Positions 15,770 to 40,914 of a stretch of 64,000 nucleotides of DNA are shown piece after piece (position 1 is the first letter of the stretch; each line of letters starts with the position of its first letter). A program made the translations under genes and the position numbers. Below the pieces are notes generated by a model. It did not search any database and was not told where the DNA came from. It saw only the letters and a list, made by a program, of their open reading frames with translations. The stretch is from NCBI RefSeq assembly GCF_014202315.1, contig NZ_JACHGN010000029.1, positions 1 to 64,000 on the forward strand. Reading direction: 5' to 3'. This stretch comes from Thermocatellispora tengchongensis (GTDB lineage Bacteria > Actinomycetota > Actinomycetes > Streptosporangiales > Streptosporangiaceae).

Positions 15770-15785
15770 ACCTCTCCCCTTTCTC

Positions 15786-18037: not shown

Positions 18038-18046
18038 GACGTCAGG

Positions 18047-24460: not shown

Positions 24461-25593
24461 CCACCTCCCTCGCTCCCGCCCGGCCGTACGCGCGGCGCGG
24501 CCTGCCGGAGCGGGTGGTGTTCGCCTGCATGGACGCCCACACGCTGGGCGGCATCCAGCGGGTGACCCACACCCTGGCGCAGGGCCTGGCCGGGCGCGGC
24601 TACGAGGTGCACGTGCTGGGCCTGCACCGCTCCCCGGCCCCGTTCCGGTACGTCGAGCGGCCGGCGTACCGCTCGCACGAGATCCACCGCACGCCCATGG
24701 GCCCGGTCGGCCCGCTCGCGCGCCGCCTGGGCGACCGGAGGCTGCGCGCGCTGCTCGACCGGCTCGGCCCGGCGCACATCGTGCTGACCTCGCCGGGCGT
24801 GGTGAGCCGGATGCTGGCGCTGCTGCCGCCGCACATGACCCCGATCGGGCACTACCACGGCTCCTTCGAGCACGCCCAGGGCACCTGGCACCTCGGCTCG
24901 GTGCGCCGCCACTGGGGGCGGCTGGAGCAGTCGGTGTTCCTCAGCCCGGACGACGCGGCCGGCTTCGCCGCGCACGCGCTGCTGCCGCACACCTGGACGA
25001 TCCCGAACCCGCTGCCCGACTGGCCCGCCCGCCCGTCGCCGCTGTCGGCGCCCCGGGTGCTCGGCATCGGGCGGCTGGAGGGCGTCAAGCGGTTCGACCG
25101 GCTGATCTCGGCCTTCGCCCGCGCCGTGCGCACCGGCCGCGACCCGTGGGAGCTGCACCTGATCGGCGACGGCGAGGACGTGCCGCTGCTGCGCGAGCAC
25201 GCCCGCGCCGAGGGGGTCGGCGACCGGGTGGTGTTCCGCGGCCGGGTGCCCGCGGCGCTGATGCGCGCGGAGTACCTGGGCGGGGCGGTGGTCGGGCTGT
25301 CCAGCGAGCACGAGGGGCTGCCGCTGGTGCTGTGCGAGGCCGCCTCGTACGGGGTGCCGGCCGTGGCCTTCGACGTCTCGGGCGGGGTCAGGTCACTGGT
25401 GCGGCACCAGCGCACGGGGCTGCTCGCCCCGCCCGGCGACGTGGACGCGCTCGGTGCGGCGCTCGCCCGCCTGATGGGCTCGGCGGACGAGCGGCGGCGA
25501 ATGGGCGCCGCCGCCCGCGCACACGCCGAGCAGTTCCGGCTGGACCGCGTGCTCGACGGATGGGAGACCCTGTTCGAGCACATCGCGCGATAA
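24457..25593 (+). CDS. GT4-family glycosyltransferase
   Basis: GT-B retaining glycosyltransferase, 378 aa, starting at a GTG that overlaps the previous stop (GTGA). Shows the GGIQRVTHTLAQGL acceptor-side segment (about 29-42), the GxGRLEGVKRFD start of the C-terminal domain (about 205), LIGDGEDVPLL, and the E-x7-E signature EHEGLPLVLCEA (about 288-299). It resembles TagE/poly(glycerol-phosphate) alpha-glucosyltransferases and other cell-wall GT4 enzymes. Co-expression with the TagF fusion suggests that it decorates or extends the same polymer; sugar donor unknown. Confidence 0.88.
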   Translation: MTTSLAPARPYARRGLPERVVFACMDAHTLGGIQRVTHTLAQGLAGRGYEVHVLGLHRSPAPFRYVERPAYRSHEIHRTPMGPVGPLARRLGDRRLRALLDRLGPAHIVLTSPGVVSRMLALLPPHMTPIGHYHGSFEHAQGTWHLGSVRRHWGRLEQSVFLSPDDAAGFAAHALLPHTWTIPNPLPDWPARPSPLSAPRVLGIGRLEGVKRFDRLISAFARAVRTGRDPWELHLIGDGEDVPLLREHARAEGVGDRVVFRGRVPAALMRAEYLGGAVVGLSSEHEGLPLVLCEAASYGVPAVAFDVSGGVRSLVRHQRTGLLAPPGDVDALGAALARLMGSADERRRMGAAARAHAEQFRLDRVLDGWETLFEHIAR

Positions 25594-25744: not shown

Positions 25745-26806
25745 TCACTTGGCGGCGGCTCTGGTGCCGGCGAGTTCGGGGGAGCCGGTGCGCTGGCGGG
25801 GTACGCCGGTGATGGCGAGCTGGCCCGAGGTGAGCTGGGCGCCGATCGGGTTCTGCTCGCGCATGCGGATGAGGCGGTCGAACGCCTTCTTGCGCAGGCG
25901 CGACAGCTTGCGCCTGGCGGCCATCCGCTCGTACGCCGCGAGCTTGGTCATCGGCGCCTTGGGCGCGCCGGTCACCTCGTACCCGTAGGCGTCCAGGCGC
26001 TCGGCGAGCACGCTCTCGCACAGGGAGATCTCCCACGGCTCAAGCCGGGTGCGCCAGCTCCCGGAGCGGGACGTGGTGACCTCGCCGTGGGTGCGGGAGT
26101 GCCAGGTCTTGCGCTCGGGCACGGCCACGCTGGCCACCAGGTGCGGGCGGCACATGGCCGGGTCGAACTCCTCGCCGATGAACTCGCACAGCGTGCGCAG
26201 GGTGCTCTCGGGGTCGCTGATCAGGTTCTCGTACTGCAGCTCGTGGTAGCTGCCCTTGGGCATGCGCAGCGCGCCGTTGCGGGCGAAGTCGATCGCCTCG
26301 GCCCAGCCGGAGACGGCGCTGTAGATGTTGCCCTTGTACCAGGGCATCTCCTTCAGCGAGGCGACGCAGTCGCGCCCGTCGCGGATCAGGTGGATGAACT
26401 GCGCGTCGGGGAACAGCCGCAGCAGCACATCGACGTTCTGGAAGTACGACGGGCGCTTGTCGCCCCAGCGCGGCTTGCCGAAGCGGGCGGCGTACGCGCG
26501 CAGCACGATGCCGAGCGCCGAGCCGAGCGTCCCCGGGCCCTCCACGATCTGGCGGGAGACCTCGGCGGCGTCCAGGCCCAGCTCGTAGAACCGGGTCTGG
26601 CGGCGGGTGACGATCCACTCGGCCAGGGCGCGCCGCTTGGCCGGGTCGTTCAGGTCGCCGAAGGTGAGCCGCCGGTTGTAGGCCGTCATCACGAACCTGG
26701 TCTCCGGCGGGATGGCCATCCGCGGATGCGAGTGCATCATGAGCTGGAGCAGCGTGGTCCCCGAGCGCGGGCACCCCACGATGAAGATCGGTCGATCCGA
26801 TTGCAT
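25745..26806 (-). CDS. Sulfotransferase family protein (PAPS-dependent)
   Basis: Transfers sulfate from PAPS to a hydroxyl group, probably on a glycan or lipid. The 353-aa protein begins with the 5'-phosphosulfate loop FIVGCPRSGTTLLQ (about 8-21) and has the 3'-phosphate region FIHLIRDGRDCVASL (about 135-149) of the Sulfotransfer_3/1 superfamily. I start at ATG 26806, next to the P-loop, with GGGGG upstream; the frame continues 63 codons further but that part is low-complexity. Same strand as, and downstream of, the CDP-alcohol transferase and GT2 genes, so a sulfated surface polymer is a possibility. Confidence 0.87.
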   Translation of the reverse strand: MQSDRPIFIVGCPRSGTTLLQLMMHSHPRMAIPPETRFVMTAYNRRLTFGDLNDPAKRRALAEWIVTRRQTRFYELGLDAAEVSRQIVEGPGTLGSALGIVLRAYAARFGKPRWGDKRPSYFQNVDVLLRLFPDAQFIHLIRDGRDCVASLKEMPWYKGNIYSAVSGWAEAIDFARNGALRMPKGSYHELQYENLISDPESTLRTLCEFIGEEFDPAMCRPHLVASVAVPERKTWHSRTHGEVTTSRSGSWRTRLEPWEISLCESVLAERLDAYGYEVTGAPKAPMTKLAAYERMAARRKLSRLRKKAFDRLIRMREQNPIGAQLTSGQLAITGVPRQRTGSPELAGTRAAAK

Positions 26807-26918: not shown

Positions 26919-27977
26919 TCAGCGCGCGAGTGGAGTGCCGACGCGGTTCTTCTCGTCCTGCCGCTGGATGCGCCGCATGACCCGCCCGAAGTCACGGGTG
27001 GACATCCACAGCTTGTAGACCAGCGCCGACTCGAAGATCAGCAGCAGCGCCCCCGCCACCCCGATCACGTACGGCACCGCCGCCGGGCCGAGCAGCGGCC
27101 CGACCACGAACACGGCCATCTGGTATTCGATCCCGCTGACCAGGTGGGTGCGGATCCGGTGCGCGAGGAGCATCCCGCGCAGGCGGGTGTACCACGGGAA
27201 GCGGGACTGGAAGCCGTGGTGCAGGCCCTGGTTGGCCCGCGAGCGCAGCCCCCGGCGCGGGCGCTCGGGCGCGTCCCCCGACGCGTTCCCCGTCGCGAGT
27301 CCCGTCCCGAGGCCCGTCCCGAGTCCCGTCGTGAGGCCCGTCGCGGGTCCGGGCACCGCGTGGCCGAGGGCCCCGTCCATGTCGTCGTGGTCGTCGTGGT
27401 CGTCGTGGCCGGCCGTGCGGGCGGCCAGGCGTTCCAGCGCGGCCTGCCGCTGGCCCCCCTCGGCGGAGCTCATCGCGCTGACCAGCTTCTCGCGCATGTT
27501 CCTGCGCACCTTGGCCATCTGCGGGCCGTTGAGGTAGCGGACCAGGTCGAAGGCGATGATCACCCCGGCCAGGAACGCGGCCTCGGGCCGCCCGCCGTGC
27601 TGGAACAGGCCGTAGGCCAGGGCGAAGGCGCAGACCACCATCCGCACCTGGTCCAGGCTGAAGTCCAGCCAGAGGCCGAACGTGGTGCCGTTGCCCTTCA
27701 GCCGGGCGAGCTTGCCGTCCATGCAGTCGGCGATGAAGCCGAGGTGGAAGAACAGCGCGCCGAGCGCCAGGGTGTGCCACTCGCCCAGCGCGAAGCAGAC
27801 GGCGGCGCACATGCCGAACAGGAACGCCGTCGCCGTGAGCGCGTTCGGCGTGATCGACGTACGGGAGGCCAGCACGCGTACGAGCCTGCACGCGATCGGA
27901 TCCACCAACAGCACGGTCCACCAGGCGTCGCGCGGTTTGCACACGGCACGTACGTCCGCCAGCGAGTACGTCGTCAT
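26919..27977 (-). CDS. CDP-alcohol phosphatidyltransferase family membrane protein
   Basis: Integral membrane enzyme joining a CDP-activated alcohol or sugar-phosphate donor to an alcohol acceptor, 352 aa. The full active-site motif is visible: Asp84-x2-Asp87-Gly88-x2-Ala91-Arg92-x8-Gly101-x3-Asp105-x3-Asp109. Six or so membrane helices surround it. Unusually, a ~75-residue insert (about 180-255) contains HDD repeats and a GLGTG repeat run of low complexity. The preferred start is the ATG at 27977; an ATG four codons earlier is possible and neither has a clear ribosome site. In this locus it may make a phosphodiester-linked lipid or polymer precursor; the acceptor is unknown. Confidence 0.85.
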   Translation of the reverse strand: MTTYSLADVRAVCKPRDAWWTVLLVDPIACRLVRVLASRTSITPNALTATAFLFGMCAAVCFALGEWHTLALGALFFHLGFIADCMDGKLARLKGNGTTFGLWLDFSLDQVRMVVCAFALAYGLFQHGGRPEAAFLAGVIIAFDLVRYLNGPQMAKVRRNMREKLVSAMSSAEGGQRQAALERLAARTAGHDDHDDHDDMDGALGHAVPGPATGLTTGLGTGLGTGLATGNASGDAPERPRRGLRSRANQGLHHGFQSRFPWYTRLRGMLLAHRIRTHLVSGIEYQMAVFVVGPLLGPAAVPYVIGVAGALLLIFESALVYKLWMSTRDFGRVMRRIQRQDEKNRVGTPLAR

Positions 27978-28018
27978 GACAGCCAGCATGATGAAGCCGG
28001 ACGGATCGCCATGGGAGC

Positions 28019-29560
28019 CTAGCCACCTTGGGAAACTGTCCTGACTGACTCTTTACCGGTGGCTTTATCTGAGACTTTGTCGGATAGCCCCGCCCGCGCC
28101 CGCTTGGCCCTGCGCAACTGCCGCCGCCGCAGGGTGCCGTGCTTCACCGGGCCCTCGCGGCGCAGCCCGCGCGGCCCGGTCAGCTCCACGTGCAGCGACC
28201 AGCGTCCGCGCAGCTCCTTGACCAGCTTGCGGTTCAGGGTGGCCACGAAGCCGGTGGCGGGGCCGTCGGCGCCGTCCGGGTGCGGGCGGCGGGTGCGGGC
28301 GAACGTCACCACCGGGATGCGTTCCTGCGTGCCCGGTGAGACCAGCCACAGCTTCATGCGCGTGCGTACGTCCTCGGCGTGCCTGATGTAGGCGTAGCCC
28401 TCGATCGCCAGGGACCGGCCGCGCCAGGACACGCGCTCGACGCCGGCGCGCAGCTCCAGCTCCTCGGTCACGTCGTACAGGTGGGCCGGGATGCGCCGGG
28501 CGCGGTCGCCGTAGTACGGGTAGGCGGCGAACCAGCGCGCCTCGCGCAGCCCGCGCGGCACCACCCTGACCCGCCCGCCGTGCTCGCGCCTGGACCGGCG
28601 CACCTCGGCCAGCTCGCCGACCATGCCGTGCCGCAGCAGGTACAGCTCCAGCCGGCGGATCGCGGGCAGCCCGCGCACGGCCTCGCCGTCGATCTGGTCC
28701 ACGTACGCGCCGACCAGGCCGAGCAGGGCGGACCTGTCGGGCTCGGCGGCGGCCTCGACCGCCTTGGCCACGATCGCCAGGTCCCAGGACGCGACCATCC
28801 CGTCGTACGCCGCGAGCAGCGCGGGCGCGCGCCGGGCGAGCAGCGAGCGCGCGGTGCGCACCGAGGCCAGCCGCTCGGCGATGTTGGCCGCCTCGGTGCG
28901 GCGCTGGGTGATCGAGGACGCGCCCGACTCGCGCAGCCGCCAGTGGTAGACGACCTCGGGCACCACGTCCACGGCGGACGCGCGCACGTGCGCCTCCAGG
29001 GCGACCGGCAGGTCCTCGTACAGGCCCGGCGGGAACGACAGGCCGCAGGCGTCCCAGAAGGAGCGCCGGTAGACCTTGTTCCACACCGTGCGGTCGCGGA
29101 CCAGTTTGGGCGCTCGGGTGATGTGGGTGCGTCTGGCCCCGCGCCGGAACGTCCTGGCGTGCAGCGGTGAGGGGCCGAGGGTGCCCGACTCCAGCCGCTG
29201 CACCCCGCCGCAGGCCAGATCGGACCCGCTGTCCTCCAGGGCGCGCACGAGCCGCTCGTACGCGTCGCGCGGGAGCACGTCGTCGGCGTCGGCGAAGGCG
29301 AGGTACCGGCCGGTGGCCGCCTCGATGCCGAGGTTGCGCGCCGGCCCCGGCCCGACGTTGGCGCCGGTGCCGACGAGGACGAACCTGGGGTCCCATGCGG
29401 CGAACACGTCGGCGATGGTCCTGCTGCCGTCGGCGGACCCGTCGTCCACCATGACGACTTCCAGGTCGTCCAGCGTCTGCGAGGCGAGTGAGGTGAGACA
29501 CTCCTCCAGATATGCGACTACGTTATGGAAGGGTACGACAACAGAGAGTAACGGTGCCAT
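28019..29560 (-). CDS. GT2 glycosyltransferase with extra C-terminal module
   Basis: GT-A family 2 transferase, 513 aa. The catalytic domain (about 1-230) starts LLSVVVPFHNVVAYLEECL, with VMVDDGSADGS and ADADD (metal site). The C-terminal half contains a beta-rich module starting near YDVTEELELRAGVERVSW (about 365) that also occurs in the GT2 gene at 35995 and, less clearly, in the TagF fusion. The closing ~40 residues are very basic. First gene of a minus-strand operon with the CDP-alcohol transferase and sulfotransferase; divergent from the pse genes at 29681. Acts at the membrane inner face on an unknown acceptor. Confidence 0.88.
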   Translation of the reverse strand: MAPLLSVVVPFHNVVAYLEECLTSLASQTLDDLEVVMVDDGSADGSRTIADVFAAWDPRFVLVGTGANVGPGPARNLGIEAATGRYLAFADADDVLPRDAYERLVRALEDSGSDLACGGVQRLESGTLGPSPLHARTFRRGARRTHITRAPKLVRDRTVWNKVYRRSFWDACGLSFPPGLYEDLPVALEAHVRASAVDVVPEVVYHWRLRESGASSITQRRTEAANIAERLASVRTARSLLARRAPALLAAYDGMVASWDLAIVAKAVEAAAEPDRSALLGLVGAYVDQIDGEAVRGLPAIRRLELYLLRHGMVGELAEVRRSRREHGGRVRVVPRGLREARWFAAYPYYGDRARRIPAHLYDVTEELELRAGVERVSWRGRSLAIEGYAYIRHAEDVRTRMKLWLVSPGTQERIPVVTFARTRRPHPDGADGPATGFVATLNRKLVKELRGRWSLHVELTGPRGLRREGPVKHGTLRRRQLRRAKRARAGLSDKVSDKATGKESVRTVSQGG

Positions 29561-29680
29561 ACGAATCAGAGTGCCTTCCGGGGCCCTCTCTGCGGCGAAG
29601 GACTACCCGCCGCTTGCCCGGCCTTTGCCCAAGCCTGGGCTTCCCCGTCCACATCCCGAACGATCACTGTCTGCGGCAAA

Positions 29681-30220
29681 ATGAACGCGACGAGTGAGGA
29701 ATACGAGGCCATGCTGCGCGGAATCGCCGACCACGAGCTCGAAACCGTACGCCGCTGGCGCAACCATCCCAAGGTGCGCGCGGCCAGCTTCACCACCCAC
29801 GTCATCCGGCCCGACGAACACGCCCGCTGGTGGGCCGCCGTGCGCGACGACCCGTCGCGGCGGGTGCTGATGTACGAGCACGCCGGCGTCCCGGCCGGGG
29901 TCGTGGCCTTCAGCGGGCTCGACGCCCCCGGCGGCGGTGCGACGTGGGGCTTCTACCTGGACATCGACGGGCTGCTCGCCTCGGGCGAGCTGCTGCGGGC
30001 GTGGTTCGGCTGCGAGCGGGCGGCGGTCGAGCACGCGTTCGGGCCGCTCGGCCTGCTCACGCTGCACGGCGAGGTGCTGGCCGGCAACCGGCAGGTGCGC
30101 GCCCTGCACCGCCGCTTCGGCTTCGCCGAGGTGGGCTCCTACACCCGGGTCATCGACGGCGAGCCGCGCGAGGTCGTACGCGTCCGCCTGGACCGCGACA
30201 ATCGAAGGGAAAGCACGTGA
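29681..30220 (+). CDS. pseH: GNAT N-acetyltransferase, PseH-like
   Basis: Predicted to acetylate the 4-amino group of the UDP-4-amino-4,6-dideoxy-AltNAc intermediate of pseudaminic acid synthesis. The 179-aa GNAT protein has LETVRRWRNHPKVRAASF near the N-terminus, typical of PseH, and the acetyl-CoA region VLAGNRQVRALHRRFGF (about 128-144). It overlaps the pseI-like gene by 4 nt (GTGA), which supports the assignment. The start may instead be the ATG at 29711, nearer the usual family start and preceded by GAGGAATACGAGG. Confidence 0.85.
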   Translation: MNATSEEYEAMLRGIADHELETVRRWRNHPKVRAASFTTHVIRPDEHARWWAAVRDDPSRRVLMYEHAGVPAGVVAFSGLDAPGGGATWGFYLDIDGLLASGELLRAWFGCERAAVEHAFGPLGLLTLHGEVLAGNRQVRALHRRFGFAEVGSYTRVIDGEPREVVRVRLDRDNRREST

Positions 30221-31260
30221 TCTCCATTGCCGGCCGCGCCATCGGCGCGGGACACCCGCCGTTCGTGATCGCCGAGATGTCGGGCAACCACGACGGCGAC
30301 CTCGACCGCGCCCTGGCCATCGTCGACGCGGTGGCCGAGGCGGGCGCCCACGCGCTGAAGCTGCAGACCTACCTGCCCGACACGCTCACCATCGACGCCG
30401 ACGGGCCGGCCTTCCGCATCGGGCGCCGGCACGAGCTGTGGGGCGGCGAGACCCTGTACCGCCTCTTCGAGCGGGCCCACACGCCCTGGGAGTGGCACGA
30501 GCCGCTGTTCGAGCGGGCGGCCAAGCACGGGCTGGTCGCGTTCTCCTCGCCGTTCGACCCGAGCGCGATCGAGCTGCTGGAGTCGCTGGGGGCGCCGGCG
30601 TACAAGATCGCCTCCTCCGAGATCGTGGACCTGCCGCTGATCCGGATGGCCGCGGCCACCGGCAAGCCGCTGATCATCTCCACCGGCATGGCCACGGCCG
30701 AGGAGGTCTGCGCCGCCGTGGCGGCGGCGCGCGAGGCGGGCTGCGACGAGATCGCGGTGCTGTCGTGCACCGCCACCTACCCGGCCCCGCCGCAGGAGAG
30801 CAACCTGGCCGCGCTGCCGCTGCTGGGCGCGCTCACGGGCTGCGTCACCGGGCTGTCGGACCACACGCCGGGCATCGGGACGGCGGTCGCGGCGGTGGCG
30901 CTGGGCGCGTGCGTGATCGAGAAGCACGTCACGCTCTCGCGCGCCGACGGCGGCGTCGATGCCGCGTTCTCGCTGGAGCCGGCCGAGCTGGCCGCGCTGG
31001 TGGCCGAGACCGAGCGCGCCTGGCAGTCGATCGGCGAGGCCCGCATCGGCCCCAAGCCCAGCGAGCGCGAGGGCCTGCGTTTCAGGCGCTCGCTCTACGT
31101 CGTGGCCGACGTGCGCGCCGGCGACCGGGTGACCCCGGCCAACGTGCGCTCCATCCGCCCGGCGGGCGGCCTGCACCCCGACGCCGCCCGCCTGGTCATG
31201 GGCCGCACCTTCACCCGTGACACGCCCAAGGGGACGCCGCTGACCTGGAACTTGATCTAG
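30217..31260 (+). CDS. pseI: Pseudaminic acid synthase (NeuB family)
   Basis: Condenses phosphoenolpyruvate with 6-deoxy-AltdiNAc to give pseudaminic acid. The 347-aa protein has the NeuB TIM-barrel (about 1-270) with FVIAEMSGNHDGDLDRAL, KLQTYLPDTLT, KIASSEIVDLPLI and GLSDHTPGIGTAVAAVALG, then a C-terminal SAF/antifreeze-like domain (about 285-347). GTG 30217 has AAGGGA ahead and overlaps pseH. The EMSGNH form and the neighbours favour pseudaminate over sialate or legionaminate. Its 3' end overlaps the convergent pseG gene by 50 nt. Confidence 0.92.
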   Translation: MISIAGRAIGAGHPPFVIAEMSGNHDGDLDRALAIVDAVAEAGAHALKLQTYLPDTLTIDADGPAFRIGRRHELWGGETLYRLFERAHTPWEWHEPLFERAAKHGLVAFSSPFDPSAIELLESLGAPAYKIASSEIVDLPLIRMAAATGKPLIISTGMATAEEVCAAVAAAREAGCDEIAVLSCTATYPAPPQESNLAALPLLGALTGCVTGLSDHTPGIGTAVAAVALGACVIEKHVTLSRADGGVDAAFSLEPAELAALVAETERAWQSIGEARIGPKPSEREGLRFRRSLYVVADVRAGDRVTPANVRSIRPAGGLHPDAARLVMGRTFTRDTPKGTPLTWNLI

Positions 31261-32215
31261 ACAGCGCGAGCAGCGCGTCGGCGACCCGGGAGCGCCCGTG
31301 CCCGTCGATCAGCGCGCGCCCCGGGCCACCGAGCCGCGCCCGCGCGCCCGGGGCGGCCAGCTCGGCCAGCAGCGCCCGCAGCACCGGCACGGCGGCCTCG
31401 GGGTCGGCGCCGAGCCCGGTGGCCAGCCCGTTGCCGACCACCGCCTCGTAGCCCACGAGCTGGTTGGCCGCCACCCAGGTGAGCGCGGCCGGCACCCCGA
31501 GATACAGCAGCTCCCAGGTCGCCGACCCGGCCGCGGTGAGCACCAGGTCGGCCCGCGCCATCAGCGCCGGCAGCTCGTCGGTGGGCGGGATGACGGTCAT
31601 CCCGGGGTACGCCGGCGCGTCGCCGACGGCCGTGCACACGCACGGCACGCCGGTGTCGGCCAGGGCCCGCAGCCACCGCCCGGTCACCCCGGCCGCGTCG
31701 GTGCCGCCGAAGAAGCACAGCACCCGCGGCGGCGCGGCGGCGTCGGGCCGCACCTCGCCGCCCTCGCGGACCACGTCGTCGCGCAGCAGGGCGTAGCGGG
31801 CCCCGGCCAGCACGGGCGTGCCGGGGTCGTACCTGGCCTCCGCGCCGAGGTTCTGGTCCAGGTACAGGTCGGCCTCCTGCCGCGGCTCGGGGGCGTCGAT
31901 CACGTGCAGCACGGGCACGCCCGCCCCCCGCAGCGCGGCCCCGGTGCCCTCGGGCAGGTCGTAGCGGTCGAGCACCACCACGCCCAGCCCCAGCGCCGTG
32001 GCCTGCGCGGCGAACCGGGCGGGCTCGGCCGCGGCGGGCAGCAGCGACAGCCTGCGCCGCCACAACTGCGCCCGCGCCCACTCCACCCCGCCGAGGTCGC
32101 CCAGGAACAGCACCTCGGCCCCGCGGGCCACCAGTTCCTCCGCCAGCGCCACGCACCGCACCAGGTGGCCGACGCCGATCCCGCGCCCCGCGTCGCAGCG
32201 AACTCCCACTCGCAC
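31211..32215 (-). CDS. pseG: UDP-sugar hydrolase PseG
   Basis: Removes UDP from UDP-2,4-diacetamido-2,4,6-trideoxy-altropyranose before the PseI step. The 334-aa GT-B-like protein has the PseG N-terminal pattern VRCDAGRGIGVGHLVRCVALA and the C-terminal LTAAGSATWELLYLGVPAAL nucleotide-sugar region (about 226-245). GTG 32215 follows AGGAGG at about 10 nt and lies 6 nt after the PseF gene on the same strand. The last ~15 residues are Ser/Ala-rich and read through the 3' end of pseI on the opposite strand. Confidence 0.9.
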   Translation of the reverse strand: MRVGVRCDAGRGIGVGHLVRCVALAEELVARGAEVLFLGDLGGVEWARAQLWRRRLSLLPAAAEPARFAAQATALGLGVVVLDRYDLPEGTGAALRGAGVPVLHVIDAPEPRQEADLYLDQNLGAEARYDPGTPVLAGARYALLRDDVVREGGEVRPDAAAPPRVLCFFGGTDAAGVTGRWLRALADTGVPCVCTAVGDAPAYPGMTVIPPTDELPALMARADLVLTAAGSATWELLYLGVPAALTWVAANQLVGYEAVVGNGLATGLGADPEAAVPVLRALLAELAAPGARARLGGPGRALIDGHGRSRVADALLALSRSSSRSAASPWACHG

Positions 32216-32221
32216 GGCCGC

Positions 32222-32953
32222 TCACGCCTCCTGCAGCGACTTCTGCCGGACGTGGGCGTTGAGCTCGGCCACCTCGGGGTGGAGGTGCAGCCAGTCGATC
32301 AGTTCGGCGACCGAGACCGGCTGGTCGCCGAACTTGGCCACGATCCGCTGGATGACCTGCCAGTCGGGCTCGGTGTCCAGGGTGACGCGGAGGTGGGCGG
32401 CCGAGGGGTGGTGGGTGAGGCCGAGGACCCGGAAGCGGCCGGGATGGGTGTAGACGTAGGAGGTCACGTGGGCGCGGTGGTAGCCGCGGGCCTTGCGGTC
32501 GGCCTCCTCCAGCGCCTCGCGGCCGACGATCTCGACGTCGGTGCCGCGCGGCAGGGCGGGCGGCAGCGACGTGCTGAGGTAGTCCAGGCCGGGCACCACG
32601 CGGAAGACCTCGGCGGCCTCGCGGATGACGTCGGGGTCGAGCAGCGGGCAGTCGGCGGTGAAGCGCATCACGGCCCCGCAGCGGGCGTCGTCCTCGACCA
32701 CGCGCATGAACCTGGTGAGCACGTCGTCGCGGGGCCCGCGGTAGCAGGCGACGCCCAGGCGGGCGCACTCGGCGGCCACCGCGTCGTCCGGCGGCTCGGC
32801 GGTGGTGGCCACGGCCAGGCCGTCGAGCGAGCCGGCGGCGCGCGCCGCGCGTACGACCCAGCCGAGCACGGACCTGCCGGACAGCTCGCGCAGCACCTTG
32901 CCCGGCAGCCGCGAGGACCCCATCCGAGCCTGGATGATCCCGACAATCCGCAT
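32222..32953 (-). CDS. pseF: CMP-pseudaminic acid cytidylyltransferase (PseF/SpsF-like)
   Basis: Activates the nine-carbon sugar with CTP. The 243-aa nucleotidyltransferase begins IVGIIQARMGSSRLPGKVL (about 3-21), the signature of the PseF/SpsF cytidylyltransferase family, and has the FTADCPLLDPDVI segment (about 97-109). It forms a two-gene unit with pseG and is divergent from pseB across a 105-bp promoter region. In context with PseB/C/H/G/I the pseudaminate assignment is stronger than sequence alone allows. Confidence 0.88.
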   Translation of the reverse strand: MRIVGIIQARMGSSRLPGKVLRELSGRSVLGWVVRAARAAGSLDGLAVATTAEPPDDAVAAECARLGVACYRGPRDDVLTRFMRVVEDDARCGAVMRFTADCPLLDPDVIREAAEVFRVVPGLDYLSTSLPPALPRGTDVEIVGREALEEADRKARGYHRAHVTSYVYTHPGRFRVLGLTHHPSAAHLRVTLDTEPDWQVIQRIVAKFGDQPVSVAELIDWLHLHPEVAELNAHVRQKSLQEA

Positions 32954-33058
32954 CGATGCCTCATTCTCCTGTGTGACCGTGCGTCTCCATTCGGTCGCGC
33001 TATGCTACCGGCTCCGGGGGCGACTACCGCGGGTAGTCACGAATTCCAGGGGGCTTGC

Positions 33059-34048
33059 GTGAGCGTACTTACCGGGTCGTCGATATTGATCACAGGTGGC
33101 ACCGGCTCCTTCGGCAAGGAGTTCATCCGCCACGTCCTGCGCGAGCTGGAGCCGCGCCGCCTGGTGGTCTTCTCCAGAGACGAGCTGAAGCAGTACGAGG
33201 CGCGCCAGCTCTTCGGCGGCGACGACCGGCTGCGCTGGTTCATCGGCGACGTGCGCGACCGCGAGCGGCTGACCCGGGCCATGCACGGCGTGGAGAACGT
33301 GGTGCACGCCGCCGCGCTGAAGCAGGTCGACACGGCCGAGTACAACCCGTTCGAGTACGTCCGCACCAACGTCTCCGGCTCCCAGAACGTGGTGGAGGCG
33401 GCGATCGACGCCGGCGTGCACCGGGTGGTCGCGCTGTCCACCGACAAGGCGTCCAGCCCGATCAACCTCTACGGCGCCACCAAGCTGGTGGCCGACAAGC
33501 TGTTCGTCTCGGCCAACCACTACGCCGCCGCCCACCCGACCAGGTTCGCCGTGGTGCGCTACGGCAACGTCGTGGGCAGCCGGGGGTCGGTGGTGCCCTA
33601 CTTCCAGCGCCTGGCCCGCGAGGGCCGCAGCATCCCGATCACCGACAAGCGCATGACCCGGTTCTGGATCACCCTGGAGCAGGCGGTCAGGTTCGTGGTC
33701 GACTCCTTCGACCAGATGCAGGGCGGCGAGCTGTACATCCCGCGCATCCCCAGCATGCGCATCACCGACCTGGCCGAGGCCCTGGCGCCCGAGTGCCCCA
33801 CGTACGAGATCGGGGTGCGGCCGGGCGAGAAGCTGCACGAGGAGATGATCGCGCCCGACGACGGGCGCCGCACGCTGCGCCTGGCCGACCGCTACATCGT
33901 GCAGCCCACCATCGCCACCTGGGGCTACGTGCCGCCGCTGACCGGCGAGGCGGTGCCCGAGGGCTTCTCCTACCGCTCCGACACCAACGACCAGTGGCTG
34001 TCGGTCGAGCGGCTGCGCGAGATGACCTGTCCGGAGCCGGTGCGATGA
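33059..34048 (+). CDS. pseB: UDP-GlcNAc 4,6-dehydratase (inverting), PseB
   Basis: First step of pseudaminic acid synthesis: C4 oxidation, C6 dehydration and C5 inversion of UDP-GlcNAc. The 329-aa extended SDR has the nucleotide loop GGTGSFGKEF (13-22) and the catalytic set Asp129, Lys130, Tyr138, Lys142 in STDKASSPINLYGATK, which is specific to the FlaA1/PseB group. GTG 33059 is preceded by AGGGGG at good spacing. The stop overlaps the start of pseC (ATGA). Confidence 0.94.
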   Translation: MSVLTGSSILITGGTGSFGKEFIRHVLRELEPRRLVVFSRDELKQYEARQLFGGDDRLRWFIGDVRDRERLTRAMHGVENVVHAAALKQVDTAEYNPFEYVRTNVSGSQNVVEAAIDAGVHRVVALSTDKASSPINLYGATKLVADKLFVSANHYAAAHPTRFAVVRYGNVVGSRGSVVPYFQRLAREGRSIPITDKRMTRFWITLEQAVRFVVDSFDQMQGGELYIPRIPSMRITDLAEALAPECPTYEIGVRPGEKLHEEMIAPDDGRRTLRLADRYIVQPTIATWGYVPPLTGEAVPEGFSYRSDTNDQWLSVERLREMTCPEPVR

Positions 34049-35169
34049 TGCCCTACGGCCGCCACTCCGTCACCGAGGACGACATCGCCGCCGTGAGCGA
34101 GGTGCTGCGCGGCGACTGGCTGACCACGGGGCCCGCGGTGCGCGCCTTTGAGGACGAGCTGTCGCGCTGGGCCGGGGGCATGCCGTGCGTGAGCGTCACC
34201 TCCGGCACGGCCGCGCTGCACGTCGCCTACGTCGCGGCCGGGCTGCGCCCCGGCGACGAGGTGGTGATGCCGCCGATGACGTTCGTGGCCACCGCCGCGA
34301 CCGCCCACCTGCTCGGCGGCAAGGTCGTGTTCGCCGACGTGGAGCCCGACACGGCCAACCTCGACCCGGCGGCGGCCGAGGCGGCGATGACGCCGCGCAC
34401 CCGGGTCGTGACGGCGGTCGACTACGCGGGCCACCCGGCCGAGTACGACGCGCTGCGCGAGCTCACCGGCGCGGCGGACGCGGTGCTCGTGGCCGACGCC
34501 GCCCACTCGCTGGGCTCGTTCTACCGCGACCGCCCGGTCGGCACCCTCGCCGACCTGACCACGTTCTCCTTCTTCCCCACCAAGACCGTGACCACGGCCG
34601 AGGGCGGCGCGGTGGTGGCGACCGACCCGGCCCGGCTGGCGACCGCGGCCAGGTTCCGCAACCACGGGCTGGTGCGCGACCCGGCCGAGCAGCGCCACCC
34701 CGACGAAGGCGGCTGGCACCAGGAGGTCCACTCCTTCGGGCTGAACTACCGCCTGCCCGACGTGCTGTGCGCGCTCGGCATCGCCCAGCTCGGCCGGCTG
34801 GCCGAGTTCCGCTCCCGCCGGGCCGAGCTGGTCGCCCGCTACGACGCGCTGCTGGCCGACGTGCCGGGGCTCGCGCTGCCCGCCTGCCGCCCGTACGTCT
34901 CACCGTGCCGCCACCTGTACCCGGTGCGGGTGCTCGACGGGCGCCGCCGCGAGGTGTACGACCGCATGCGCAAGGCCGGGATCGGAGTTCAGGTGAACTA
35001 CATCCCGGCCTACTGGCATCCCGCGTTCGAGGATCTCGGCTACCGCCGGGGCATGTGCCCGGTCGCCGAGCGCTACTACACCGAGCAGCTCTCGCTCCCG
35101 CTGCACCCCGGCCTGAGCTTCGCCGACCAGTCGCGGGTGATCGAGGAGCTGACCCGCATCCTCACCTGA
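34045..35169 (+). CDS. pseC: PLP-dependent sugar aminotransferase PseC
   Basis: Transfers an amino group to C4 of the PseB product, using glutamate. The 374-aa DegT/DnrJ/EryC1 protein has TSGTAALHVAYVAAGL (about 52-67), the acidic cofactor contact in VADAAHSLGS (about 149-158), and PLP Lys180 in FSFFPTKTVTT. It starts at ATG 34045 overlapping pseB; the next codon is also ATG. Its 3' end overlaps that of the convergent methyltransferase gene by 8 nt. Together with pseB, H, G, I and F it completes the pathway. Confidence 0.93.
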   Translation: MMPYGRHSVTEDDIAAVSEVLRGDWLTTGPAVRAFEDELSRWAGGMPCVSVTSGTAALHVAYVAAGLRPGDEVVMPPMTFVATAATAHLLGGKVVFADVEPDTANLDPAAAEAAMTPRTRVVTAVDYAGHPAEYDALRELTGAADAVLVADAAHSLGSFYRDRPVGTLADLTTFSFFPTKTVTTAEGGAVVATDPARLATAARFRNHGLVRDPAEQRHPDEGGWHQEVHSFGLNYRLPDVLCALGIAQLGRLAEFRSRRAELVARYDALLADVPGLALPACRPYVSPCRHLYPVRVLDGRRREVYDRMRKAGIGVQVNYIPAYWHPAFEDLGYRRGMCPVAERYYTEQLSLPLHPGLSFADQSRVIEELTRILT

Positions 35170-35998
35170 GCTTGCGCATCCGGCTGGGGAACAACAGCTT
35201 GAGCATCCGCCGCACGCGGCGGCCCTTGCGCCCGGTGCGCTTGCTGGTCCACGCCGGCGCGCCGGGCACGATCTCCGGCAGTGGCTTGGTGTCGCGGCGC
35301 TCCTCCTCGCCCGCGTCGGCGCGCGGCGCGACGCGCAGCACCCGGTGGCCGCACACCCGCTCCTCGGACGTCGCCCACTCGTCGGCGCGCTCGGCCAGCC
35401 AGGCGGCCAGTTGCTCCTGCACCGGGCCGGGGTCGCCCCAGGTGCCGTAGAACTTTTGCGGGGTCAGGCAGATCGGCCGCAGGCCGCGCGCCGAGCACGC
35501 CTCCCACACCGCCGCGGCTACCCCGGGCGCGTCCTCGTCGCGGTAGCCGTCCACGGCCACGATGCCGTCGGGCACGATCAGGTCGCGGGCGGAGGTCAGG
35601 TCCTCGGTGACGTCCTCGTAGCGCTTGGAGGCGTCGATGTGGACGAACCTGCACGAGGCGGGCTTGACGTGGTCGCGGATGGCGGAGCTGGGCCCCTCCA
35701 CGATCACCGGCAGCGCCTCGTGGAAGGCGAGGTAGTTGGTCTCGAACAGGCCCCGGACCGGCTGGGCGCCGGGCTCGGCGGGGAACAGGTCGCAGACCGT
35801 GAAGCGCTCCTCCTCGCGCAGGTGCCGGGCCATGAGCACGGCGCTGCGGCCGAGGTGGGCGCCCAGCTCCAGCAGGTCGCCCGCGGTGTAGAAGCGGGAC
35901 TGGTAGCTGAGCAGCCAGTCGAACACACGCATGTCGGTGGCCGGCAGGGTGCCGGGGATGCTGTCCAGCGTCCAGGGCGCCGGTGGCACTGCGCTCAA
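35162..35998 (-). CDS. Class I SAM-dependent methyltransferase (Methyltransf_24-like)
   Basis: Probable surface-sugar O-methyltransferase, 278 aa. SAM-binding motif I is LLELGAHLGRSAVLMARHL (about 42-60), with VHIDASKRYEDVTEDL (about 115-130) as the acidic post-motif. A basic C-terminal tail ends the protein. No ATG fits; the TTG at 35998 overlaps the stop of the upstream GT2 gene (TTGA) and has AAAGGA about 10 nt ahead, so coupled initiation is likely, with GTG 35989 as the alternative. Belongs to the minus-strand operon 39841-GT2-methyltransferase. Confidence 0.82.
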   Translation of the reverse strand: MSAVPPAPWTLDSIPGTLPATDMRVFDWLLSYQSRFYTAGDLLELGAHLGRSAVLMARHLREEERFTVCDLFPAEPGAQPVRGLFETNYLAFHEALPVIVEGPSSAIRDHVKPASCRFVHIDASKRYEDVTEDLTSARDLIVPDGIVAVDGYRDEDAPGVAAAVWEACSARGLRPICLTPQKFYGTWGDPGPVQEQLAAWLAERADEWATSEERVCGHRVLRVAPRADAGEEERRDTKPLPEIVPGAPAWTSKRTGRKGRRVRRMLKLLFPSRMRKLR

Positions 35999-37974
35999 CG
36001 GATGTCGGTCCTTTCTCTGAGTATCAGGTGGCACTGGCCGGACCGGGTCACGATGTACCGGCGCGGTCCGGTGGTCCCGCCGATGTGCGCGGCGGCGTCG
36101 AACGCGAGCGGTGTGCCGCTCCCGCCCGGACGCTGCAGCACCAGCCGCCGTCCGCCCTCGCCGAAGTCGCCCGACCCCAGCGGGATGACGGCGGTGAAGG
36201 TGGCCCCGCCCGCGCCGTCGTCGCGCATGCGGGCGGGGAAGGCCATGAGGTCGGAGCCCGACGCGGTGATCGTTGCGGCGTCGGCGGCGGGGCCGCGCGC
36301 CCAGCCCGAGATGACCAGGCGGCCCGACTCGATCGCGCACGCGGTCACGGCGGCCTTGGCCTGGCGCACCTTGAGCCGGAACCGGCGGCCGGGGCCGATG
36401 GACGGGATGAGCCACAGGCCGTCGCCGATCCGCAGCGGCCCGAGGGCGTAGATCTCGTCGCCGACCTGGCCCTTCAGGCTGGCCGCCAGGCGCAGGCCGC
36501 GGGCCTGGAGTTCGGCGTGGAGCTGCCACAACCCCTCGTGCGGCACCGCCGGGTTCTGCTCGCCGCTCTCGTCCAGCGCCGCGGTGAGGTCGGCGGTGAA
36601 GGCGATGGTGGCCCCGTCGTCGCGTACGGCGAATCCGTCGCGCGGGCGGGCGGAGACGCGCCAGGCGGCGACCGGCAGGCGCGGGCCGTCCGCGCCGCCG
36701 GGCGGGCCCTGGCGCAGGGCGAGCGCCAGGCGGGCGCCGCGCAGGTCGCGGGCCACCACGCCGGGCACCCAGATCCGCCCGTCGGCGACCAGGCGCTCCT
36801 CGCGCCAGGCGACCCGGTCGATCTCGCCGGCCAGCTTCAGCTCGCCGGTCACGTCGTGGCAGTCGGCGGGCAGGCGCGGGTCGCCGTACAGGGGGTAGTC
36901 GGCGTACCAGCGGCGGCGCAGCAGGCCGCGGGGGCGTACGCGGACCCGGCGCTCGTCGGCCACCGCGCCCGCCGCGGTGGTGGTGCCGAGATCGGCCCCC
37001 TCCTCGTACGCGAGCACCGGGGCGATCTCCTCGATCAGGCCGCGTTGCAGCAGCCGGAGCTGGAGCCGGGTGAGCGCGGGCACGTCGCCCCAGGTGGCGG
37101 CGGCGACGCCGTCGAGGTAGCCGCGGGCCAGGGCGAGCAGTTCCTCCCGCTCGGGGCCGGCCAGCAGCGGCATCGCCTCGACCGCGACCTTCAGGTCGAT
37201 CTCCATCGACTCCCGGTCGAGCAGCGGCTTGAGCTCGGGCGCGTGCGCGGCCAGGAAGGCGGCGGTATCGCGTACCGACAGCAGCCGGTCGCGCAGGTTG
37301 CCGGGTTCGAGGCGGCGCTGGGTGATGGAGGACGTGCCCTCCTCGCGCTCGCGCCAGTGGTAGACGACGTCGGAGAGCACGTCCACGGTGCGGGCCAGCA
37401 CGTGGGCCGGGATCGTGACCGGCTGGTCCTCATACAGCCGGGCGGGGAAGGCCAGCCCGTGCCGGTCCCAGAACGCGCGCCGGAAGACCTTGTTCCACGC
37501 CATGCGGTCGCGGACCAGGTCGCGGTGCTCGCGCACGTGGGTGCGCCGGACGGTGGCGCGGAACGCCTCGCGGTGGGCGTAGGACTGGGTGAGCCGGTCG
37601 CCCTGGAGCCGGCGCACGTTGCCGCAGGCCAGGTCGGAGCCCGTCTCCTCCAGCGAGGCGACCATGGTCGCGTACGCGTCGGGCGGCACCACGTCGTCGC
37701 TGTCGGCGAAGGCGAGGTACCGCCCGCGGGCGCGGGCCACCCCGGCGTTGCGGGCCGGGCCGAGGCCCCGGTTGGGCTGGACGAGGACCGTGATCCGGTC
37801 GTCGGCGGCGGCGCGGGCGCGGACGATCTCGGCGCTGCCGTCGGCCGAGCCGTCGTCCACGCAGATCACCTCCAGGTCGCGGAGGGTCTGCCCGGCGATG
37901 GAGTCCAGGCACTCGCCGACGTACTTCTCGACGTTGTAGTAGGGGACGACGACGGACAGCAGCGGCTGCGGCAC
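35995..37974 (-). CDS. Large GT2 glycosyltransferase with C-terminal beta-rich module
   Basis: GT-A family 2 transferase, about 659 aa. The N-terminal catalytic domain (about 1-220) has LLSVVVPYYNVEKYVGECL, VICVDDGSADGS and ADSDD; it is clearly paralogous to the GT2 gene at 28019. The C-terminal ~330 residues hold the same module (DVTGELKLAGEIDRVAW near 375) followed by a further beta-rich region ending in RSGQCHLILRERT. I use GTG 37974 because GGGAGGA lies just ahead; GTG 37986 is the longer alternative. Same strand as the methyltransferases on either side; probably builds the repeating unit of the surface polymer. Confidence 0.87.
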   Translation of the reverse strand: MPQPLLSVVVPYYNVEKYVGECLDSIAGQTLRDLEVICVDDGSADGSAEIVRARAAADDRITVLVQPNRGLGPARNAGVARARGRYLAFADSDDVVPPDAYATMVASLEETGSDLACGNVRRLQGDRLTQSYAHREAFRATVRRTHVREHRDLVRDRMAWNKVFRRAFWDRHGLAFPARLYEDQPVTIPAHVLARTVDVLSDVVYHWREREEGTSSITQRRLEPGNLRDRLLSVRDTAAFLAAHAPELKPLLDRESMEIDLKVAVEAMPLLAGPEREELLALARGYLDGVAAATWGDVPALTRLQLRLLQRGLIEEIAPVLAYEEGADLGTTTAAGAVADERRVRVRPRGLLRRRWYADYPLYGDPRLPADCHDVTGELKLAGEIDRVAWREERLVADGRIWVPGVVARDLRGARLALALRQGPPGGADGPRLPVAAWRVSARPRDGFAVRDDGATIAFTADLTAALDESGEQNPAVPHEGLWQLHAELQARGLRLAASLKGQVGDEIYALGPLRIGDGLWLIPSIGPGRRFRLKVRQAKAAVTACAIESGRLVISGWARGPAADAATITASGSDLMAFPARMRDDGAGGATFTAVIPLGSGDFGEGGRRLVLQRPGGSGTPLAFDAAAHIGGTTGPRRYIVTRSGQCHLILRERTDIR

Positions 37975-37990
37975 GGTTCCTCCCACCCCG

Positions 37991-39844
37991 TTACCCGCGC
38001 GCGATCCGGCGTGCGGCCCGCAGGCGGCGGCGCACCGGGCGGGTCAGGGGCCGGGTCAGCGCCCGCGCCCGGCGCATCAGGCGGAAGCCGAGCCTGCGGC
38101 GCAGCCCGGCGATCCTGCGCCGCGCGGCGCGGAGTTTGGAGCGGGTCTTGCGCAGCTCGCGCTCGCGGTGGGTGAGCTTGACCTCCAGCCGGTCGATGCG
38201 GGCCTGCGCGGCGGTGAGCGTGTCGCGCAGGCGCTCGCGACCGGCCAGCACCTGCCGGTAGCTCTCCGGGGCGTCGGCCGCCGCGGTGGCGCCGACGCCC
38301 AGCGTGGTGCCGATCTCGCGGTCCAGCGCCTTGGCGCGTTCCAGATGCCGCCGGTCGTGCCGGAACCCGCTGATCGCGACCAGGGTCGCGGTCAGCCGGT
38401 CGGCGTCCACCGACCACGGCCAGGGGTGGTGGTGGCCGGAGCCGAGCAGGCGCACGGCGAAGCGCCACAGGGTGCGGGTGAGCACGACCTCGGTGGGCAG
38501 CGCGTCGGCCAGCGCCCAGCTCGGGTCGATCAGGTCCAGCCGCTCGCCGTCCCACACCAGGTTGTCGGTGGTGGCGAAGGCCAGCTCGCCGGGGACCATG
38601 CCGGCGTCGCTCCAGCGCGACAGCCAGCCGGCGAGGTGGCGCAGGCGCTCCCTGATGGCGCGGATGTCGTCGTACGCGCACGCGGTCAGCAGCACCTCGT
38701 CGAGCACCCTGCCCTCCGGGATGGGGCCGGAGAGCAGGGCGGGATCACGGTGGACGCGGTCCAGGGCGAACGGGCGCGAGGCCGGCGGCACGTGCCGCAC
38801 CCACTTCCCCTGCTCGCCGCGGGCGAGCTCCTGCACCAGCGTCCAGGGCGGCGCGCAGACGTCGTCCTCCAGCAGCGCGGCGGGCAGCGCCGGGCCGCCG
38901 GTACGGCCGGGGGCCTGCTTGCGGGCCACGGTCACCCACGCGGGGGCGAGCCTGGCGGCGAGCCCGTGCCGGAACGCCTTGCGGGTGAGCTGGACCGGGT
39001 CGGCGACGACGGCCCTGCCGTGGTAGCCGCGGGCGCAGGCGGCCACGGTGACCGCGTCGGGCAGGGTCCGTCCGCGGGCCAGCGTCTCGACGGAGAACAG
39101 CGCCCGGGGCGCGCCCGCGGCCGGATAGGCGGCGTAGCAGTCGTCCACGAGCAGGCCGTGCGCGTCCAGCTCGGCGGCGAGGGTCTGGTGGCCGTTGGGC
39201 CGGGTGTGGTCCAGCCCCCGGGGATGCCAGTCGGCGTCGGTACGCTCGTGCGGCCGGGCCTCCACCAGCGACTCGATGCCCAGGTCGTTGCGGGTGGACA
39301 GCAGCAGGGTGCCGCCGGGCGCGACGAGCGCGGCAACCTCGGCCAGGGTCTCGCGCCAGGGCCGGTAGGGCGACTCGGCCGAGTGCACCCGCTCGAACCC
39401 GTCCAGGGCGAGCACCACGTCGAACGGGTCGAGCCCGCCCAGCTTGGCGAGCTGCCCGCAGTAGACCGCGAACCCGGCGCGGCCCGCGTGCCGGGCGCCG
39501 AGGCGCACGGCGTCGGGATAGGAGCGCACCGCGACCGCGACCGAGCGCGAGCGGGCCACCAGCCAGTCCACGAAGTCCTCGGGGTGCGGGCCGATCAGCA
39601 GCACCCGGCCCGGCATGGGCCGCACGCGGCGGATCAGCTCCCGCACGATCTCGCCGCACGCCCACGCCGCCCCGTGGCCGGCGCCTCCCCAGGCCGCCCC
39701 GCCGGCGCCGCCCGGTCGCAGCGCGGCCCACTGGCCGCCGTCCTGCGCGCTCTCGGGCGCGTCGGACCACAGGAGCATCTCGCCCCCGACGAGATGCACG
39801 TTGGCGGGGCTCGCCGGTATCGACGGGACCTCCGTCGTCCTCAC
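37991..39844 (-). CDS. Methyltransferase-like protein with kinase-like middle and coiled-coil tail
   Basis: A 617-aa composite protein. The N-terminal part (about 65-270) resembles a class I SAM methyltransferase (RVLLIGPHPEDFVDWLV, then PFDVVLALDGFERVHS and LVAPGGTLLLSTRND). The middle (about 430-520) has FATTDNLVWDGERLDLIDPSW, reminiscent of the catalytic/metal loops of APH/choline-kinase-like proteins. The C-terminus (about 555-617) is a coiled coil turning into a very basic, Arg-rich tail. GTG 39844 overlaps the stop of the upstream gene and has AAGGAGG in front. Function is unknown; a multi-domain glycan-modifying protein is my best guess. Confidence 0.7.
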   Translation of the reverse strand: MRTTEVPSIPASPANVHLVGGEMLLWSDAPESAQDGGQWAALRPGGAGGAAWGGAGHGAAWACGEIVRELIRRVRPMPGRVLLIGPHPEDFVDWLVARSRSVAVAVRSYPDAVRLGARHAGRAGFAVYCGQLAKLGGLDPFDVVLALDGFERVHSAESPYRPWRETLAEVAALVAPGGTLLLSTRNDLGIESLVEARPHERTDADWHPRGLDHTRPNGHQTLAAELDAHGLLVDDCYAAYPAAGAPRALFSVETLARGRTLPDAVTVAACARGYHGRAVVADPVQLTRKAFRHGLAARLAPAWVTVARKQAPGRTGGPALPAALLEDDVCAPPWTLVQELARGEQGKWVRHVPPASRPFALDRVHRDPALLSGPIPEGRVLDEVLLTACAYDDIRAIRERLRHLAGWLSRWSDAGMVPGELAFATTDNLVWDGERLDLIDPSWALADALPTEVVLTRTLWRFAVRLLGSGHHHPWPWSVDADRLTATLVAISGFRHDRRHLERAKALDREIGTTLGVGATAAADAPESYRQVLAGRERLRDTLTAAQARIDRLEVKLTHRERELRKTRSKLRAARRRIAGLRRRLGFRLMRRARALTRPLTRPVRRRLRAARRIARG

Positions 39845-40683: not shown

Positions 40684-40914
40684 CACACCCCCTCAGCGCC
40701 CTCGTCGGCTCTCTTCCGCACAGACCTAACCAGCCGCCGCGTCCGGGCGAGGCGCCCTATACGGTTCCATTACCTTGATCTATTACCTTTGGTGATCGTC
40801 TGGATGCGGCACGTAACCTTAGTCCACGCCCCCCGCAATCCCCGGGAGCGCCCGGCCGCGATGCCCATTGTTGGCTACACTCCGCCCATACCTCGATACG
40901 AACAGTGAGGGAGC

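Follow-up and report, generated by a model that had tools for sequence, protein, structure and literature searches.

The 64,000-nucleotide window analyzed here is positions 1 to 64,000 of contig NZ_JACHGN010000029.1 (our C29) of the actinomycete Thermocatellispora tengchongensis, whose genome comprises 11.65 Mb on 62 contigs with a completeness rating of 100%. The window carries six genes, pseB, pseC, pseF, pseG, pseH and pseI, that are assigned by family to the synthesis of CMP-activated pseudaminic acid (Pse). To their right lie an unannotated gene, here called X281, its neighbor MT23, and a five-gene acyl cassette. In related genomes X281 and PseI occur together. We read the locus as a CMP-Pse module that is an optional part of a wall-glycopolymer locus, with X281 as the Pse transferase, and assign this whole reading a probability of about 0.62.

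In the mechanism that we propose, PseB, PseC, PseH, PseG, PseI and an SpsF-like PseF would, judged by homology only, convert UDP-N-acetylglucosamine (UDP-GlcNAc) to CMP-Pse. With CMP-Pse as donor, X281 would then attach the sugar to a polymer, or the repeat unit of one, carried on a lipid, a role suggested by its co-occurrence, fold and neighborhood. MT23 probably acts on the same product, and methyl capping or length control is our guess for what it does. The acyl cassette, where present, may supply an acyl-derived decoration, and a block of TagF, glycosyltransferase (GT), CDP-alcohol phosphotransferase and sulfotransferase genes would make the underlying polymer.

The predicted six-gene CMP-pseudaminate core

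The six genes span 29681-35169 as three pairs: pseH (29681-30220, + strand) with pseI (30217-31260, +), pseG (31211-32215, -) with pseF (32222-32953, -), and pseB (33059-34048, +) with pseC (34045-35169, +). Both pseH/pseI and pseB/pseC overlap by 4 nucleotides, and a 6-nucleotide gap separates pseF from pseG. Convergent overlaps of 50 and 8 nucleotides join pseI to pseG and pseC to the next gene, respectively, and pseF and pseB diverge across 105 nucleotides. An earlier reading made from the sequence alone (the sequence-only reading) had described adjacent, alternating-strand pairs that overlap or nearly do so, and the open reading frames and their overlaps agree with that description. A scan of 29400-35400 for sigma-70-type promoters returned no promoter and a single terminator-like site, the same as in shuffled sequence.

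The same reading held that all six steps are encoded, and family scores bear this out for three of the proteins. PseB, the inverting UDP-GlcNAc 4,6-dehydratase (TIGR03589, 497 bits against a cut-off of 408), PseI, the pseudaminic acid synthase (TIGR03586, 442 bits, cut-off 340), and PseH, the UDP-4-amino sugar N-acetyltransferase (TIGR03585, 93.5 bits, cut-off 93.1), all exceed their family thresholds, PseH as a bare pass with a weak match to the solved PseH 4xpk (E 6e-4). The aminotransferase PseC (TIGR03588, 394 bits, cut-off 423.5) and the UDP-sugar hydrolase PseG (TIGR03590, 129 bits, cut-off 153.6) fall 7% and 16% short of their NCBIfam cut-offs, yet for each this is still by far the best family; phmmer found no PseG among solved structures. 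The sixth protein fails the PseF family TIGR03584 (23 bits against a cut-off of 205.7). It has a CTP_transf_3 domain (PF02348, 85 bits) and belongs to a different, SpsF/KdsB-like subfamily, with the cytidylyltransferase 6oew as its best solved relative. The label "SpsF-like" refers to the family and not to an alignment with SpsF. It is presumed to be the CMP-Pse synthetase because of its context: its relatives recur beside pse genes.

Two samples bear on the grouping. The first consists of 14 stretches from other genomes chosen by PseI, in which pseB, pseC and pseI stand together in 13; the exception (L038) ends at a contig end. The second was selected by X281 and not by Pse: a species-level genome scan confirmed 354 X281 relatives, from which 80 loci, mostly of Nonomuraea and Micromonospora, were kept with stretches extending 10 kb. 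All six pse genes are present in 53 of these loci, two to five in 9, and none in 18. Since 13 of 14 PseI stretches and 53 of 80 X281 loci share it, the grouping is not due to chance. The six genes had been described as a complete pathway; they form the core of the module, but X281, MT23 and the genes from the acyl carrier protein to LuxC belong to it as well, so that the module reaches 45544.

X281, a candidate Pse transferase

X281 (39841-40686, -) is a candidate CMP-Pse transferase on the strength of co-occurrence, predicted fold and remote relatives. It has no match in Pfam or NCBIfam, and searches by sequence returned no solved structure below E 0.85, no PHROG below E 0.05 and no phage match. 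No description of it as a transferase was found in family libraries or in the literature searched, outside of which most subscription journals lie. The genome matches of the window X281 show one TGA, which is the gene's own stop codon.

Co-occurrence was scored in 120 related genomes, the source genome included, with PseI counted as present above its NCBIfam cut-off and X281 at E 1e-5. X281 is found in 15 of the 120 and PseI in the identical 15, an agreement with a chance of 2e-19 if genomes are assumed independent. Among the non-pse genes compared in this way, which did not include TagF or the GT2 genes, X281 alone matches every one of the 15. MT23 is present in 12 of the 120, all of them among the 15 (it is missing from G074, G075 and G076). 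LuxE occurs in 9 of the 120, and 7 of these 9 are PseI genomes. A class-wide set of 394 genomes, which overlaps the first, holds X281 in 13, PseI above cut-off in 20 and both in 11 (p 1.6e-14, assuming independence and that both searches sampled the same draw); 7 of these 11 also belong to the 120. The two class genomes with X281 outside the PseI set carry a PseI-like gene of 299 bits 3 kb away (G288) and a NeuB-like gene of 246 bits 13 kb away (G354).

X281 lies in 9 of the 14 PseI stretches. Each of the remaining five stops before reaching it or at a contig end, and all five of those genomes do have X281. Conversely, among the 18 X281 loci that show no pse gene, four (L049, L051, L063 and L075) come from short contigs or truncated stretches, and PseI is above cut-off in 17 of the 17 genomes that could be searched (all but that of L051), as it is in the genome of L123. 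The other 14 loci, with X281-MT23 pairs distant from pse, come from Micromonosporaceae (L089-L094, L103, L105, L107, L110-L112, L118 and L121), each with PseI elsewhere in the genome. Eleven of these 14 loci were viewed: an MT23-like gene follows X281 in all 11, and a GT4-like gene is nearby in 9. Micromonospora musae and sp. 15K316 have a second X281 beside pse in addition to the distant copy.

An AlphaFold2 model of X281 built on 28 sequences (mean predicted local distance difference test score, pLDDT, 86; predicted template-modeling score, pTM, 0.88) predicts a GT-B-like fold. With VIA-align, the model matches a UDP-GlcNAc 2-epimerase (Z 11.2), TagF (10.7) and, both at 10.3, TarL and a multienzyme of capsule synthesis whose structure was determined with CMP; the matches cover approximately residues 1-277, nearly the whole model. 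We take the epimerases, TagF, TarL and the capsule multienzyme to share the GT-B-like fold.

Remote relatives of X281 stand near nonulosonate genes. Searched against plasmid records, X281 found one Nonomuraea protein. Two hypothetical proteins of Azospirillum matched weakly (E 0.9 and 0.1), and matches to two phosphotransferases of Streptomyces (E 0.6) were taken for chance. Both Azospirillum relatives are encoded 7-8 kb from a gene of the N-acetylneuraminate synthase family. When the X281 profile was run against 45 proteins from nonulosonate loci, the Azospirillum pair reached 41 and 29 bits, and an Aureibacter hypothetical protein encoded two genes after pseI reached 24; no other protein scored above 0. 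A profile comparison of X281 with these three gave a probability of 98.5 and E 2.8e-15 over 198 columns, and the residues common to X281 and the remote relatives include His34, in the HG of QHGWN, and His108, the histidine in YPFHGWE. One Azospirillum relative, used as query against 72,556 plasmid records, found three, one of them its own, and in all three a gene for a nonulosonate synthase belongs to the cluster. The Aureibacter protein found the same three records; it is not an independent draw, because Aureibacter was first picked for having PseI. Neither the three remote relatives nor two divergent actinobacterial ones have a significant Pfam or NCBIfam match. Separately, the Aureibacter protein (L171:5208-6230) shows a weak PF01973 match (E 0.06), a possible distant Maf-type link that we regard as a lead only.

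There is another possibility for the transfer step: Pse may be transferred by one of the family 2 glycosyltransferases GT2a and GT2b or by the TagF-domain protein (all described below), with X281 acting later to modify or epimerize a Pse-containing intermediate. We consider this unlikely, although it has evidence behind it. The first Foldseek matches of the X281 model are nucleotide-sugar 2-epimerases (E 1e-5), and a loosely built GT2a/GT2b/TagF cluster occurs in 66 of the 77 loci that have pseI and pseB, against 68 of 77 for X281 in what is an X281-enriched set. TagB-domain proteins are also named as plausible transferases of Pse or legionaminic acid (Leg) derivatives in Tannerella in the available text of PMC7439481, but the same text reports that the TagB-domain protein SpsB is not needed for Leg transfer in Bacillus subtilis. 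TagF, a GT2 and a GT4 also occur in a related locus that has no pse gene. X281 matches every PseI genome of the 120, in a comparison that did not include the GT2 genes or TagF.

Several observations weigh against X281 as the Pse transferase, or against the reading as a whole. Its first Foldseek matches, as noted, are epimerases, and the TM-scores are low (0.32-0.44 across the 15 matches that reach E 0.001); the shared fold names no reaction. The sialyltransferase motifs HP and D/E-D/E-G, as given in the available text of PMC7439481, are each found in 4 of 28 X281 rows, without a shared column. Fourteen of the 80 loci have X281 and MT23 at a distance from pse genes, and in G067 and G076 X281 and PseI are on different contigs, so that linkage is not seen there. 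Nine of the 20 PseI genomes of the class set have no X281 by the first profile, and a broader profile run around their PseI genes found an X281 relative in G450 only, leaving eight without (the stretch of G209 is just 5 kb long); therefore other transferases must exist. The p-values are overstated because the genomes are related. Nine (possibly ten) of the 15 genomes also supplied rows to the X281 profile, which cannot, however, explain the absence of X281 from the other 105. Finally, the acyl cassette, judged by LuxE, is missing from 8 of the 15 PseI genomes.

Beyond the window, we tentatively propose that X281 represents an unnamed family of GT-B nonulosonate transferases, using CMP-Pse or, near NeuB-like genes, other CMP-nonulosonates, that may be distributed across Actinomycetes with remote members in Alphaproteobacteria and Bacteroidota. 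Its partner within Streptosporangiaceae and Micromonosporaceae would be MT23, which may cap or measure the Pse-bearing chain, often together with the acyl cassette. This broader proposal is slightly less probable than not.

The putative wall-polymer locus, MT23 and the acyl cassette

Left of the pse genes lie, in order, a GT2-TagF fusion of the wall teichoic acid polymerase type (21686-24460, +; PF00535 117 bits, PF04464 271 bits), a GT4 glycosyltransferase (24514-25593, +; PF00534 106 bits), a sulfotransferase (25745-26806, -; PF13469 148 bits), a CDP-alcohol phosphotransferase (26919-27989, -; PF01066 50 bits) and GT2a (28019-29560, -; PF00535 126 bits). To the right follow the methyltransferase MT24 (35162-35989, -; PF13578 51 bits), GT2b, with a long C-terminal part (35995-37986, -; PF00535 133 bits), MT23, X281 and the acyl cassette. 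Eight of the 14 PseI stretches have GT4, sulfotransferase and CDP-alcohol phosphotransferase genes near pse, and all eight belong to genomes of the window's own family. The CDP-alcohol phosphotransferase does not track PseI, being matched in 57 of the 120 relatives.

One relative, G012, has no PseI above cut-off and a CDP-alcohol phosphotransferase 73% identical to that of the window across its first 206 residues. The corresponding locus, L158, is colinear with the window. It starts with guaA and a deacetylase gene and continues through GT2, MT24, CDP-alcohol phosphotransferase, sulfotransferase and GT4 to GT2-TagF, with the GT2 belonging to the GT2a/GT2b cluster. It contains no pse gene, X281, MT23, AMP synthetase, LuxE or LuxC, and a short-chain dehydrogenase/reductase (SDR) gene lies beyond guaA; X281, MT23 and LuxE have no match anywhere in the G012 genome. 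Since the pse genes, X281, MT23, AMP synthetase, LuxE and LuxC are jointly absent, the Pse module looks optional within this type of wall-glycopolymer locus of actinobacteria, in this comparison with one genome.

The sequence-only reading had taken the TagF- and GT2-type neighbors as a sign of a wall polymer. The neighbors are there, but TagF adjacency alone is weak evidence, because the TagF block is also present in G012 without pse and because two Micromonosporaceae stretches (L145 and L146) have no TagF-like match within 10 kb of PseI. A tie between TagF and Pse was also sought in the X281 loci; the count (4 of 80) was left unused, the TagF-X281 distance in the window being 15 kb against a locus reach of 10 kb. 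Elsewhere in the genome, a second TagF-type gene (PF04464) lies at 93440-94540 of contig C7, in a 1012-aa open frame. The sulfotransferase is a conserved member of the wall-polymer locus, with two or three copies in the relatives L033, L037 and L040, and a sulfated wall polymer is possible.

MT23 (37991-39844, -) is described from its fold and its co-occurrence as a methyltransferase-like domain followed by a middle domain, a long coiled coil and a basic tail. The N-terminus resembles UbiG and other methyltransferases (VIA Z ~15), and a helix predicted at 529-596 precedes the tail. Seventy-nine X281-MT23 neighbor pairs were counted among the 84 X281 genes called. By sequence, MT23 did not find WbdD in the PDB; its matches, none better than E 0.086, were confined to coiled-coil-like stretches, ribosomal protein L9 and methyltransferases. 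Its architecture recalls that of the chain terminator WbdD, which we take to be a methyltransferase-kinase-coiled coil protein: the methyltransferase-like domain, the long C-terminal coiled coil and the basic tail are alike, but the kinase part of WbdD has no demonstrated counterpart in MT23. A kinase-like motif seen by eye was rejected because the aligned sequences do not conserve it. Neither of the MT23 fold searches has WbdD in its 50 listed rows, which methyltransferases fill; this absence says little, because both searches used the whole protein rather than the middle domain by itself.

The acyl cassette begins with an acyl carrier protein (ACP) gene (40915-41160, +; PF00550 23.9 bits, cut-off 20.8). 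It continues with an SDR of the 3-oxoacyl-ACP reductase type (41141-41923, +; PF13561 191 bits on 41240-41923), whose start, taken from the reading frame, is unsure, an AMP-dependent acyl synthetase (41920-43272, +; PF00501 101 bits), a LuxE-type acyl-protein synthetase (43269-44312, +; PF04443 142 bits) and a LuxC-type acyl-CoA reductase (44309-45544, +; PF05893 104 bits).

From these neighbors we infer that Pse is attached to a wall polymer. Pse is classically found on proteins. A surface or spore-coat glycoprotein as acceptor is a rather improbable alternative: a similar acyl cassette is known from flagellin-glycosylation islands, as far as the available descriptions of those islands go, but the window genes stand among TagF, CDP-alcohol phosphotransferase and GT genes and the genome has no flagellin, the only glycoprotein searched for. 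The flagellin family PF00669 had no match in the genome, and the same search was positive in 4 of 14 control genomes. Maf-type PF01973 had no match either, a weak negative because only archaeal controls (4 of 14) gave matches and none of these is known for Maf. Thus, of the claim that the locus serves a wall polymer and not flagella, the lack of flagellin and the recurrence of polymer-type neighbors stood, and the presence of Pse in the wall polymer is our inference from them.

Apart from these genes, the window has a beta-lactamase family gene at 762-1604 and a region without a gene call at 15770-18364, where G+C drops to 0.64 (16001-18000) in a window mostly above 0.70.

The nonulosonic acid and known systems

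The sequence-only reading had proposed PseI phylogeny as a check on the identity of the sugar. PseI of the window scores 442 bits with the PseI model against 260 with the NeuB model (NeuB cut-off 400), and among solved structures the pseudaminic acid synthase 8h2c (232 bits) precedes SpsE (174) and a SiaC/NeuB entry (134). In a tree of 23 rows it falls, with a split supported at 100/99, in a 16-row clade that includes the annotated PseI of Peribacillus, Klebsiella, Mesorhizobium and Aureibacter. The other seven rows comprise NeuB proteins, two of them encoded next to neuC, together with the NeuB fusion of the source genome and the G354 synthase; three rows have long branches, ten inner branches are open, and no row is an experimentally proven LegI. 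The window PseI thus groups with annotated PseI, apart from NeuB, in a tree whose rows include no proven LegI. We call the G354 synthase Leg-type because its PseB- and PseC-like neighbors are only ~30% identical to those of the window. The source genome has a second nonulosonate system on contig C3 (L046:7471-11937), where a gene for a CTP_transf_3-HAD-NeuB fusion neighbors a GT2 gene and one of the polysialyltransferase type (PF07388); we take it to be of the 2-keto-3-deoxynononic acid (Kdn) type.

That the product is another nonulosonic acid (legionaminic acid, 8-epi-Pse or another isomer) is, in our estimate, quite improbable. PseG and PseC score below their cut-offs, and PseF is SpsF-like, with spsF belonging to the legionaminate pathway of B. 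subtilis in the available text of PMC7439481. PseB, however, exceeds the cut-off for the inverting dehydratase, and PseI groups with PseI proteins.

With Pse as the product, the pathway itself is of a known kind. By family assignment its six steps are those of the PseB-C-H-G-I-F pathway of Campylobacter and Helicobacter, from which the window differs in its SpsF/KdsB-like PseF, its three convergent and divergent pairs and a genome without flagellin. Pse-containing wall polymers are known from Actinoplanes and Kribbella, so wall pseudaminate in actinomycetes is not in itself new. For these polymers our literature search found no text, only an entry in the reference list of the available part of PMC13274773. 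Other nonulosonic wall polymers (teichulosonic acids) of actinomycetes, among them the Gal-Kdn polymer of Streptomyces coelicolor (genes SCO4873-SCO4882) and the teichulosonic acid of Kribbella, are described in the available texts of PMC11481543, PMC7831098, PMC13011467 and PMC6113628. In these texts the sugar is Kdn or of unspecified type, whereas the window genes are of Pse type. The sps legionaminate pathway of B. subtilis, as far as the text of PMC7439481 was available, has the cytidylyltransferase SpsF with TagB-domain and GT2 proteins nearby. The window likewise has a cytidylyltransferase and TagF- and GT2-type neighbors, but its PseB and PseI are of Pse type.

The closest parallel to the acyl cassette is the group II flagellin glycosylation island of Aeromonas, where pse genes accompany an ACP, a 3-oxoacyl-ACP reductase, an AMP-dependent synthetase, luxE and luxC (available text of PMC7874193). 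The window has the same five functions in the same listed order, a likeness of description rather than of sequence; islands of Enterobacteriaceae carry similar acyl genes (available text of PMC4875605). In contrast to the Aeromonas island, the window has wall-polymer neighbors and a genome without flagellin, and X281 and MT23 are not named for Aeromonas in the available text. Flagellar glycosylation, which the gene set and acyl cassette of the Aeromonas type would favor, was rejected because PF00669 had no match in the genome, and is left with a negligible probability. As far as our searches go, a CMP-Pse pathway coupled to X281, MT23 and the acyl cassette is a new combination.

Transferases are a poorly known step of nonulosonate pathways; in the available text of PMC7439481 the Leg transferase of B. 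subtilis is still unidentified. X281, from a family that has no Pfam or NCBIfam name and whose set of related genomes is that of the Pse pathway, is a direct and testable transferase candidate, and the locus offers a genetic handle on the nonulosonic acid wall polymers of actinomycetes.

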